In this document: piece after piece, positions 385 to 5,103 of the stretch
Numbering within the stretch: the stretch's first letter is position 1
How the letters are laid out: every line of letters starts with the position of its first letter
From: Thiobacillus sp.
Lineage (GTDB): Bacteria > Pseudomonadota > Gammaproteobacteria > Burkholderiales > Thiobacillaceae
Assembly (NCBI RefSeq): GCF_024708915.1
Contig: NZ_JANJXQ010000104.1
Coordinates: forward strand, 1-5,255
Reading direction: 5' to 3'
DNA: 5,255 bases
Translations under genes and position numbers: made by a program
Notes under the pieces: model-generated
The model's input: the letters and a program-made list of their open reading frames with translations, nothing else
What the model was told of the DNA's origin: nothing
The model's database searches: none

Positions 385-823
385 TCAGGGGCAGTCTGCG
401 TCCTGGACGATGCGCCGGATGAGATCGGCCGCAAATCCGCGGCTTTGCAGGAAGCGCATCTGCCTGGCTTGCTCCGGCGCGTCGGCGGGCGCGGCGCCGA
501 ATTTCTTCTTCCATACTGCGCGCGCGCGCTCGAATTCGCTGCCGCGGTTTTCGCCCAGCACGGCCTCGATGATGGCGTCGCCCACGCCGCGCTGACGCAG
601 GTCGTAGGCAAGCTTGACGCTGCCGGTGCGGGCGCGGTGGTCGGCAACGTAGCTGTCGGCGAAGCGCTGGTCGGAGAGCCAGTTTTTGGCCTCGAACTGG
701 TCCAGCAACACGGCGATGTCCGCGCGAGCAAAGCCCGCAGTTTCGAGCTTGCGGGCGAGCTCGAAGCGGCTGTGCTCGCGCCGTGCCAGCAGGCGCAGGG
801 CGCGCTCGCGCAGTTCGCCTGGC

Positions 824-840
<17 letters not shown>
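385..840 (-). CDS. recX: RecX, regulator of RecA filaments
   Basis: A 151-aa cytosolic protein of the RecX family, which binds RecA and limits filament growth on single-stranded DNA. The usual family length is about 145-165 aa. Signature blocks visible are the N-terminal helical segment [18 protein letters not shown] (11-28), the hallmark [17 protein letters not shown] (54-70), the RQRGV turn (82-86), and the C-terminal repeat [17 protein letters not shown] (129-145). These correspond to the three tandem three-helix modules of RecX. The ATG at 838-840 lies inside the 3' end of recA, overlapping by 17 nt in another frame, and no alternative start is found just upstream. A GAGG sits directly against the ATG, too close for an ideal ribosome site, so expression probably depends on coupling to recA translation, which would keep RecX below RecA. 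Confidence 0.93.
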
Positions 841-1864
<1,024 letters not shown>

Positions 1865-1872
1865 GGTTTCTC

Positions 1873-1878
1873 TCTCCT
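1873..1878 (-). promoter_or_regulatory. recA ribosome binding site
   Basis: AGGAGA on the minus strand, extended by GAG, lies 8 nt before the recA ATG. It is the clearest Shine-Dalgarno sequence in the window and suits a highly expressed gene. Confidence 0.8.
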
Positions 1879-1932
1879 GATCAGTCGGTTTGCGTGGGTG
1901 TGGGCAGTCGGCGGAGCGTCTGCATGGCCCGC

Positions 1933-1961
1933 AATGTAGGCGATAGATTTATCGGTGTCAA
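1933..1961 (-). promoter_or_regulatory. recA sigma70-type promoter
   Basis: On the minus strand a perfect -35 hexamer TTGACA (1961-1956) is followed after exactly 17 nt by TACATT (1938-1933), a 4/6 match to TATAAT with the key A2 and T6. Transcription would start near 1926, giving a leader of about 62 nt before the recA ATG. AT-rich DNA directly upstream of the -35 (about 1962-1990) could act as an UP element. The 17-nt spacer holds a small perfect inverted repeat (CGATA-N4-TATCG, 1941-1954), a typical place for a repressor site. No CTGT-N8-ACAG LexA box is present. Promoter assignment is by inspection only. Confidence 0.6.
1941..1954. promoter_or_regulatory. Small palindrome between recA -35 and -10 (possible operator)
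   Basis: CGATA-GATT-TATCG is a perfect 5-bp inverted repeat with a 4-bp spacer, lying wholly within the 17-bp spacer of the recA promoter. A protein bound here would block RNA polymerase. It is short enough to occur by chance in AT-rich DNA, and no known regulator is recognised. It partly overlaps a second, imperfect inverted repeat, TATCGGTG (1950-1957) and CACCTATA (1972-1979), which matches at 7 of 8 positions and frames the recA -35. Confidence 0.35.
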
Positions 1962-1988
1962 TAAAAAATATCACCTATATAAAAAATA
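1961..1988. repeat. Direct repeat of an A-tract element in the recA-WYL spacer
   Basis: The 10-mer ATAAAAAATA occurs identically at 1961-1970 and 1979-1988, start to start 18 bp. The repeats form the core of an AT-rich island (about 1941-2008) that contrasts sharply with the GC-rich coding DNA on both sides. A-tracts like these bend DNA and can serve as UP elements for the promoter reading toward recA. A role as paired binding sites is possible but unproven. Confidence 0.5.
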
Positions 1989-2008
1989 CAACTTTATGAA
2001 TTGTATTT
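1984..2008. promoter_or_regulatory. Perfect 8-bp inverted repeat: candidate operator of the WYL regulator
   Basis: AAATACAA (1984-1991) and TTGTATTT (2001-2008) are exact reverse complements separated by 9 bp (CTTTATGAA), so arm centres are 17 bp apart. This geometry suits a dimeric winged-helix protein. The right arm overlaps the probable -35 of the plus-strand WYL gene, so binding there should repress that gene. The site centre lies roughly 70 bp upstream of the inferred recA start point, where an activator could act. BrxR and CapW, the closest described relatives by appearance, bind inverted repeats upstream of their own genes. Which protein binds here is inference. Confidence 0.55.
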
Positions 2009-2028
2009 GATGCCGGTCGCCCTATAAT
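2001..2028 (+). promoter_or_regulatory. Promoter of the WYL regulator gene
   Basis: A perfect -10 TATAAT is at 2023-2028. The best partner 16 nt upstream is TTGTAT (2001-2006), only a 3/6 match to TTGACA, so the promoter would be weak or regulated. A start near 2035 gives a leader of about 27 nt. The -35 lies in the right arm of the 1984-2008 inverted repeat, as expected for autoregulation. Confidence 0.5.
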
Positions 2029-2061
2029 TTCGGCCACACCGGATCGAGCGGAGCGAGCACT

Positions 2062-2952
2062 ATGATTGCAAAAGAAAAAATGCATCTGGATGTGAAGTGG
2101 GCGACACGTCAGCGGCTGCAGTACATCGAAATCATGGCCTGGTATGCCGGGATCGTGACCCGCAGCGACGTCGCCCGCGCCTTCGGCCTGTCCGATCCGG
2201 CGGCGACCAAGGATCTCAAGCTCTACGGCGATCTGGCCCCCGGCAACCTGGTCTACCAGCACAGCGTGTTCGGTTTCGTGCCGGGCGCGGATTTCGGCGC
2301 CGTCTTTGCCGACCTCGCGCCCGCGGTCGTGCTGCCGGTCATTGCCGCCAATCTGGCGGTGGCGAACGGGCCGTACGGAAACGAGCCGGTGTATGGCCTG
2401 GCGACCGCGGCGCTGCCGCTGCCGGCCCGCTTGCCGGGCGCGCAGACCCTGGCGCAGATCACCCGCGCCATCCACGGCCGGCGCAAGCTGCGCGTCGGCT
2501 ACCGTTCTCTGTCCAGCCGGGAGAGCGGGGCGGAGCGGGTGCTGGAGCCGCACACCCTGGTCAATACCGGGCTGCGCTGGCATGTGCGGGCGTATAGCGA
2601 GGACACCTGCGATTTCCGCGATTTCGTGCTGTCGCGCGTCATGGCGGCCAGATGCCTGGATACGCCCGCCGAATCCGGCGAGCAGTACGACGACGACTGG
2701 GTGGAAACGGTGAGCCTCAAGCTGGCCCCGCACCGCGGGCTGGATGCGCCCAGGCGCGAGAGCCTGCTGCTGGATTACGGCGCGAGCGGCGAAACCATCG
2801 AGGTGAGGGTGCGGCGCGCCCTGCTCGGCTACGTGTTGCAGCGGCTCGGCGTCGACACCACGCCGGAACATACCTTGAATCCGAACGCCTACCAGCTGAT
2901 GCTGCTGAACCGCGACGAGATCGAACCGTTCGCCGCCTGGGCTTTTGGGTGA
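2062..2952 (+). CDS. WYL-domain transcriptional regulator, BrxR/CapW-like, divergent from recA
   Basis: A 296-aa predicted DNA-binding protein. Residues 13-75 form a winged helix-turn-helix; the recognition segment is in SDVARAFGLSDPAATKDLKLY (35-55), followed by LAPGNLVYQ (58-66). A linker to about 125 leads to the WYL domain (about 128-200), with RVLEPHTLVN (159-168), RWHVRAYSE (172-180) and DFRDFVLSRV (184-193). The canonical W-Y-L triplet reads W-H-V. The C-terminal part (about 212-296) fits the WCX extension that helps dimerisation. This layout is that of single-chain WYL regulators such as BrxR and CapW, which form homodimers and repress defence operons. WYL domains in PafBC and DriD sense single-stranded DNA. 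The ATG at 2062 has GGAG at 2050-2053 (8 nt spacing); a second Met at codon 7 is less well served. No defence genes are visible here. The target is unknown; recA and itself are the obvious candidates. The gene sits on the opposite strand to all its neighbours, suggesting insertion into the cinA-recA block. Confidence 0.85.
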   Translation: MIAKEKMHLDVKWATRQRLQYIEIMAWYAGIVTRSDVARAFGLSDPAATKDLKLYGDLAPGNLVYQHSVFGFVPGADFGAVFADLAPAVVLPVIAANLAVANGPYGNEPVYGLATAALPLPARLPGAQTLAQITRAIHGRRKLRVGYRSLSSRESGAERVLEPHTLVNTGLRWHVRAYSEDTCDFRDFVLSRVMAARCLDTPAESGEQYDDDWVETVSLKLAPHRGLDAPRRESLLLDYGASGETIEVRVRRALLGYVLQRLGVDTTPEHTLNPNAYQLMLLNRDEIEPFAAWAFG

Positions 2953-2982
2953 GCGGGGAGCAGGAGGACTGCCAAAGCATTT

Positions 2983-3076
2983 TTATCCGCGAAGGACGCG
3001 AAGCAACACGAATGAAACCCGCTCGCCATTTTTTTCTTCGCGCAACTTCGCGCAACTTCGCGCCCTTCGCGGATAA
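2983..3076. repeat. Intergenic inverted repeat with tandem 10-mer between the convergent WYL gene and cinA
   Basis: The left arm (2983-3003, beginning TTATCCGCGAAGG) and right arm (3056-3076, ending CCTTCGCGGATAA) are reverse complements at 20 of 21 positions. Weaker complementarity extends about 9 nt further inward. Inside, the 10-mer CTTCGCGCAA is repeated exactly at 3036-3045 and 3046-3055 and continues as a diverged third copy that merges with the right arm. The element fills most of the 153-bp gap between two converging genes, so its long hairpin could limit readthrough on both strands. A run of seven T at 3029-3035 lies in the loop, not after the stem, so it is not a classic intrinsic terminator. 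The CGCGAAG core resembles dispersed intergenic repeats of environmental proteobacteria; that is recollection, not a search. Confidence 0.7.
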
Positions 3077-3105
3077 CGCCTTTTGCAGCCTTTCTGCGGG
3101 AGCGG

Positions 3106-5033: not shown

Positions 5034-5103
5034 GGCGTGAGGGGTGAGGCGTGAGGCGTGAGGCGTGAGGCGTGAGGCGTGAGGCGTGAGGCGTGAGGCG
5101 TGA
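5034..5103. repeat. Ten-copy 7-bp tandem repeat (GGCGTGA) abutting the thiL start
   Basis: Ten consecutive heptamers fill 5034-5103. Nine are exact GGCGTGA; the second from the left (5041-5047) is GGGGTGA. Read along thiL mRNA the unit is TCACGCC. The array ends two bases before the thiL ATG and occupies the place where a ribosome binding site should be. Such near-perfect arrays mutate by slippage, so copy number probably varies between strains. The regular 7-bp period without spacers rules out a CRISPR. Confidence 0.9.

Follow-up and report, generated by a model that had tools for sequence, protein, structure and literature searches.

The recA locus and its divergent WYL gene

We analysed a window of 5,255 nucleotides, the whole of the Thiobacillus sp. 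stretch presented here. Within it, recA, the presumed target (824–1864, minus strand; TIGR02012, 574.5 bits), is followed at its 3' side by recX (385–840, minus strand; NF001055 above its cut-off), which overlaps the end of recA. On the opposite strand, an open reading frame with an ATG start (2062–2952, plus strand) encodes a 296-residue WYL regulator with the order wHTH, WYL domain (PF13280, Pfam E-value 1.2e-14) and WCX-like C-terminal domain, which sequence matches and Foldseek of an AlphaFold2 model place in the CapW/BrxR type. The WYL gene and recA lie head to head across a spacer of exactly 197 bp (1865–2061). A preliminary description of the window had reported both this single-chain WYL gene divergent from recA over 197 bp and the lack of a CTGT-N8-ACAG site in the spacer. 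The open reading frames, TIGR02012 and Pfam confirm the first; the second holds even with two mismatches allowed, at which stringency the spacer has no match and the entire window has 13, against 12.7 expected by chance.

A consensus scan placed the recA promoter at 1933–1961 on the minus strand, with a −35 element TTGACA (1961–1956), a 17-bp spacer and a −10 element TACATT (1938–1933). This TTGACA-N17-TACATT arrangement is near-consensus, and one promoter-like site was found where shuffles gave 0.2. The presumed WYL promoter (2001–2028, plus strand; TTGTAT at 2001–2006, 16 bp, TATAAT at 2023–2028) was read from the sequence and was missed by the consensus promoter scan.

Two further repeats were seen by eye in the window. 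Between the WYL gene and pncC (2953–3100), cgcgaa/ttcgcg words recur with inverted copies (cgcgaaggacgcgaa ... ttcgcgcccttcgcgg) and resemble a small dispersed repeat or a terminator, and 5' of thiL (5037–5101) a 7-base unit of the gcgtgag type is repeated in tandem about eight times.

The WYL protein is a relative of CapW and BrxR

The closest solved chains by sequence were 7tb5, 7qfz, 7tb6, 7t8k and 9c5g. Profile matches to five CapW/BrxR sequences had E-values of 7.5e-48 to 1.2e-40 over at least 275 residues; the PafBC profile match was 2.4e-7, and DriD was absent among the sequence matches at E 0.001. An AlphaFold2 monomer model (mean pLDDT 83) gave the same order by Foldseek E-value, BrxR/CapW first (E-values to 2.1e-22). 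The Foldseek TM-score was ~0.3 for all matches and the rmsd to BrxR/CapW ~20 Å, so that the monomer model is without global superposition of the domain arrangement. Judged by sequence and profile, the WYL protein belongs with CapW/BrxR rather than with DriD/PafBC. The preliminary description had taken PafBC and DriD, which are activators, as its nearest models; both profiles and Foldseek correct this, since CapW/BrxR, described as repressors, are far closer.

Of the eight CapW pocket residues named in PMC9122588, seven are kept (Y147, S149, R172, H174, R186, F188 and R192), with W-H replacing W-Y; the eighth, W156 in S. maltophilia CapW, is matched by R159 in the window protein. The recognition-helix region S44–D51 is near-invariant over 31 orthologues, with variation at position 46, which is what a conserved operator would lead one to expect. 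By its title, PDB entry 9c5g shows CapW of R. leguminosarum in complex with single-stranded DNA (ssDNA), and PMC13373217 describes CapW/BrxR as repressing until ssDNA is bound.

The recA-WYL pair recurs across distant lineages

We scanned genome contigs with the WYL alignment alone and kept the best 80 of 87 loci. A divergent recA lies beside the WYL orthologue in 78 of the 80, at identities down to 58%, and the spacer in these 78 loci, which are those with upstream DNA, measures 146–321 bp. The other two (L073 and L080) begin within the WYL gene. Records named Thiobacillus span 68–95% identity, one truncated locus aside, and MAGs named Ectothiorhodospiraceae, Legionellales, Thiotrichaceae and Granulosicoccaceae span 58–68%. 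In these 80 orthologue loci, pncC is often found on the other side of the WYL gene. The arrangement is far beyond chance, because it recurs in every locus that holds upstream DNA. Because the neighbour is recA in 78 of the 80 loci, the WYL protein is a CapW/BrxR relative in fold and sequence and not a defence-linked CapW or BrxR.

To guard against selection effects, we also took an even draw of 274 genomes from the class. WYL matches in this draw were bimodal, with 19 orthologues at 457–547 bits and the rest at 150–195 bits. All 19 orthologues lie on recA (in L117, at a contig end, 29 recA residues are visible), and none of the 11 paralogue loci examined, out of 15 paralogue places in the draw, is at recA. 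The pair, which the preliminary description knew from one strain, is thus conserved far beyond it, as both the orthologue loci (78 of 80) and the even draw (19 of 19) show.

Many of our numbered genomes (G001 onwards) are MAGs. The MAGs in which two Thiobacillus-like sequences (L003 and P0003) stand are labelled Rhizobium and Candidatus Thermoplasmatota, probably through binning errors. Close plasmid copies were sought with megablast and none was found; all 637 tblastn records were below 60% identity.

A conserved 76-bp footprint covers the recA promoter

When 78 spacers and that of the window were anchored on TGTCAATA (at most one mismatch), they aligned without gaps over 76 bp, with flanks that align poorly. 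L026 was excluded from the MAFFT spacer alignment only. We refer to L001–L052 plus the window as the beta set and to L053–L079 as the gamma set, a split by locus number, which is identity rank and not taxonomy (L058, in the gamma set, is labelled Thiobacillus). The conserved footprint (1933–2008 in the window), common to the 79 spacers and described by a weight matrix, is the presumed WYL operator region. Its shared letters are A.T.TAGG..aTA..TTt.....TGTCAATA.....TAtcAccTa..TA.....TA..a..T.aT...TT.TAtt. They span the recA −10 (TAnAnT) and −35 elements and the WYL −35 region, and many of them are not σ70 positions; conserved letters also lie between the recA −35 and −10. The −35 hexamer TTGACA is exact in 73 of the 79 spacers, with the 17-bp spacing kept, and the cctataat of the presumed WYL promoter is conserved within the beta set.

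The footprint contains several repeated elements. TA-N5-TA elements form direct repeats 18 bp apart in both the beta and the gamma set. Inverted arms of the form TAGG..ATA/TATcACCTA flank the recA −35, and in the window these are TAGGCGATA (1937–1945) and TATCACCTA (1969–1977). Measured against column shuffles, the inverted similarity of this pair, at −19/+13, lies above the 95th percentile for the beta set and for all spacers together; the top pairs listed for the gamma set do not include it. Further from recA, the window has a perfect inverted repeat, AAATACAA-N9-TTGTATTT (1984–2008), that overlaps the presumed WYL −35 and had been missed in the preliminary description. Its core TAnnA-N9-TnnTA palindrome (1987–2005), the positions of which are conserved across spacers, has the geometry of a DriD site. 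As the entire operator, the exact long palindrome was rejected; it is restricted to part of the Thiobacillus set, and the dyads seen over the spacers as a whole are looser. The footprint reaches to about −80 of recA, and this reach, together with a distal part that resembles the site of the activator DriD, would suit an activator too.

The five bases within each TA-N5-TA element (window 1964–1968 and 1982–1986) tend towards A-runs in many of the Thiobacillus spacers, and towards T-runs in the gamma spacers and some of the beta ones; the two elements tend to switch together.

Gene and footprint are present together or absent together

The footprint weight matrix scored 34–100 bits at all 19 loci of the even draw that have the WYL gene (WYL+) and found no match in 63 recA upstream regions without the gene (WYL−), all of which scored −38 bits or less. 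The matrix had been trained on rows that included eight of these 19 loci; with these eight overlapping rows held out, the scores were 34–101 bits for the 19 WYL+ loci versus at most −35.6 for the 63 WYL− regions. The WYL− set comprises 40 fetched regions and 23 from the draw, and L159, from a WYL+ genome but at a contig end, was kept out of it. Many WYL− recA upstream regions have instead a −10-like element of the GGGATAAT or GTGATAAT type.

Many recA genes that lack the WYL gene (L138, L140, L143–L146 and others) have an upstream element in common, TATGGGATAAT or TGTGGGATAAT, which marks another conserved type of promoter.

In an rpoB tree built from 40 genomes (12 WYL+ and 28 WYL−; 40 of the 51 with a match among 59 searched), the trait changes at least seven times, five of the changes being forced by supported branches. 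Gene and footprint change together in five of five independent pairs on supported branches (p 0.0625, the minimum for five pairs); in this test gene and footprint were given identical labels, since the weight matrix had shown no difference between them in those genomes. Over 67 loci, the WYL tree is congruent with that of RecA (Mantel r 0.87, a value reached by 0 of 999 permutations); 13 of the 80 were left out for a short recA, stops or no recA.

A multi-gene regulon under the long pattern was considered and rejected. In genomes G001–G017, the pattern matched the pair locus in 15 of 17 (not in G010 or G015), plus at most one three-mismatch match per genome; the extra three-mismatch matches in G004, G008 and G011 are of nearly the same sequence. 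In several gamma genomes, long-pattern matches were no more numerous than in the reversed control. This rejection holds for the long pattern and does not extend to a regulon built from single short sites.

LexA is present beside the pair

The preliminary description had linked the pair to the absence of lexA. That correlation fails: of 33 pair genomes, 26 have a lexA match above the curated cut-off, nearly full-length in 25 and partial in G010. In the even draw, some lexA match was found in 17 of 19 WYL+ genomes (none in G115 or G246, a weak one in G031), versus 207 of 274 overall. Also counting against the link, 13 of 14 Thiobacillus-type lexA upstream regions carry an exact CTGT-N8-ACAG box, and the remaining one has two one-mismatch boxes. 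The exact 19-bp box TACTGT-N8-ACAGT is present at lexA in all seven Thiobacillus-type genomes searched; elsewhere in those seven, one-mismatch matches did not exceed the control, and the only exact match was a second box in G007, a perfect LexA-type palindrome (at about 1304–1325 of L276, G007:C28) 5' of a Y-family-polymerase-like gene. The genes that follow lexA in G005 are imuA, a 466-residue open reading frame and an error-prone DNA polymerase gene; from its position we take this frame, which is without an NCBIfam match, as a putative imuB. Six of 11 lexA upstream regions from gamma pair genomes (L088, L089, L090, L092, L093 and L096) have GTTC-N7-GTTC-like direct repeats with at most one mismatch, and in the other gamma regions the automatic start call failed. 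These repeats are of the type known from alphaproteobacterial LexA, not CTGT-N8-ACAG.

LexA and the SOS response would likewise make recA damage-inducible, but none of the 79 recA spacers has a LexA-type site, whether CTG[TC]-N8-[AG]CAG or exact GTTC-N7-GTTC; with one mismatch, the latter occurs in one of 26 gamma-set spacers. LexA is present in most pair genomes, with its own boxes elsewhere than at recA. The missing box is weak evidence by itself, because most of the WYL− recA upstream regions sampled lack one too: among the 63, eight have a relaxed CTGT-type site (six of them exact), two others have the GTTC type, and 53 have neither. For this reason we rejected the lack of a LexA box at recA as a diagnostic of WYL control. 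As far as these motif and gene searches can tell, the pair is no substitute for an absent LexA, lexA being there in most pair genomes; it stands beside LexA, on recA, without visible LexA contact. For the strain of the window itself, we infer a lexA gene from relatives 86–96% identical in the WYL protein.

Comparison with characterized WYL regulators

CapW, the CBASS-associated WYL repressor (7tb5, 7tb6, 9c5g), shares length and domain order with the window protein and aligns with it over 280 residues. It is reported to be divergent from its target operon, as the WYL gene is from recA. CapW binds promoter DNA near −10/−35, where the presumed operator of the window lies. It differs in its target, a defence operon rather than housekeeping recA, in its identity of only ~30%, and in that the WYL gene studied here holds a conserved position across distant lineages. 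BrxR, the BREX regulator (7t8k, 7t8l, 7qfz), gave the best profile and Foldseek matches and is described as a homodimeric repressor with AT-rich inverted repeats that have half-sites of 10–11 bp and a 5-bp spacer, versus TAnnA-N9-TnnTA and 18-bp direct repeats here; BREX genes are absent beside the WYL gene of the window.

DriD, the WYL activator of Caulobacter (8tp8), is reported to be ssDNA-sensing and LexA-independent. Its site, given as ATACGAC-N7-GTCGTAT in PMC12340889, shares the TAnnA-N9-TnnTA geometry, and the targets named there are didA, bapE, recJ and dnaG; its fold match is much weaker (Foldseek E-value 2.0e-7 versus 2.1e-22). PafBC, the mycobacterial WYL activator (6sj9, 9fnd), is reported to provide an ssDNA-triggered, LexA-independent route to recA alongside LexA. 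It differs in being a heterodimer or fusion at a proteasome locus that controls more than 150 genes by sigma adaptation, and its match to the window protein is confined to the WYL stretch (2e-9).

A model for control of recA

The pairing and the co-occurring footprint argue that the WYL protein very probably controls recA by binding the footprint. This upholds one part of the preliminary proposal, that a single-chain WYL protein controls a recA without a LexA box, while the part that tied it to the absence of lexA falls away. The ssDNA sensing proposed there agrees with a family reported as ssDNA-sensing; damage sensing and an effect on recA are predicted.

In our model, a CapW/BrxR-like homodimer would bind the ~76-bp footprint, over the recA −10/−35 and the DNA just upstream, and would most likely keep recA (with recX) and its own gene down, the overlap of the footprint with the presumed −35 of the WYL gene giving self-repression. 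ssDNA arising in DNA damage would enter the WYL pocket, and the protein would release the operator. Induction of recA would then come from direct sensing of ssDNA and would not pass through RecA-driven LexA cleavage, and LexA in the same cell would retain itself and the mutagenesis polymerases. The homodimer, the binding, the sign of control, the ssDNA signal and the induction by damage are the elements that we infer. We put the probability of the full model, an ssDNA-released WYL repressor of recA and of itself, at roughly 0.57. The repressor sign is favoured because of the family, the TTGACA with 17-bp spacing, the conserved letters between −35 and −10, and the overlap with the presumed WYL −35.

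Several other readings of the locus can be weighed against this model. The same regulator and target could work with the opposite sign: like PafBC or DriD, the WYL protein would, once activated by damage, switch recA on by recruiting RNA polymerase from sites 5' of the −35, and would repress only itself. Much of the footprint does lie 5' of the recA −35, its distal site has the DriD geometry, and DriD, PafBC and SiwR are all reported as activators. The nearest relatives of the window protein are repressors, however, the near-consensus recA −35 with its 17-bp spacing contrasts with the poor −35 elements of DriD-activated promoters described in PMC12340889, and the conservation between −35 and −10 also speaks for repression; we regard activation as unlikely, if a serious competitor. 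It seems less likely again that the WYL protein controls recA but answers neither to ssDNA nor to DNA damage, its signal being some other nucleic acid, a nucleotide or a metabolic cue. The ligand is deduced from relatives and one of the eight CapW pocket residues differs (W156 to R159), but the other seven are kept, WYL proteins of three branches are reported to bind ssDNA, and recA as target suits a damage signal.

Two further readings would sever the protein from recA. If the WYL gene regulated only itself or an unrelated regulon and synteny kept it by recA, the footprint would be the promoter of recA itself under another factor, and inheritance of the whole region could produce the co-occurrence. 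We consider this improbable: the WYL gene is scattered on the rpoB tree, with at least seven changes, and the footprint follows it each time, paralogues are not found at recA in the loci examined, and the long pattern has no consistent second locus in the Thiobacillus genomes. The gene could also be a leftover or a passenger from a phage-defence island that happened to land by recA. Its nearest characterized relatives guard CBASS and BREX systems, which speaks for this reading, but the conserved position by recA, the open frames and the score gap between orthologues and paralogues make it very improbable indeed.

Implications

recA is a textbook target of LexA. The WYL sensor considered here probably sets the amount of RecA in the cell. 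Control of recA by WYL proteins is itself already known, from PafBC and, according to PMC10693628, from DriD, and CapW/BrxR repressors are known from defence operons. In the open-licence literature, which leaves subscription papers and preprints largely outside, we found no CapW/BrxR-type member described as dedicated to recA and divergent from it, and noticed no report of a proteobacterial recA-linked WYL gene other than DriD; recA has 0 occurrences in the main text of the BrxR family survey PMC9122601.

We tentatively suggest, at a confidence somewhat short of even, that the SOS response is split between two sensors, a CapW/BrxR-type direct reader of ssDNA having taken over recA and LexA keeping itself and the mutagenesis polymerases. 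With recA and the operator, the reader would have moved as one unit, gained or lost several times across Beta- and Gammaproteobacteria, and it would share an ancestor with the WYL repressors of phage defence. The finding also opens a general puzzle to direct test, namely what governs recA in bacteria whose LexA has no site there. A conserved, dedicated second regulator of recA that reads ssDNA would imply that recombination and mutagenesis are tuned independently of each other in some proteobacteria. If true, it would also mean that a family known from phage-defence islands has a housekeeping member, and a common ancestor would connect the way DNA repair is controlled with the way immunity is.
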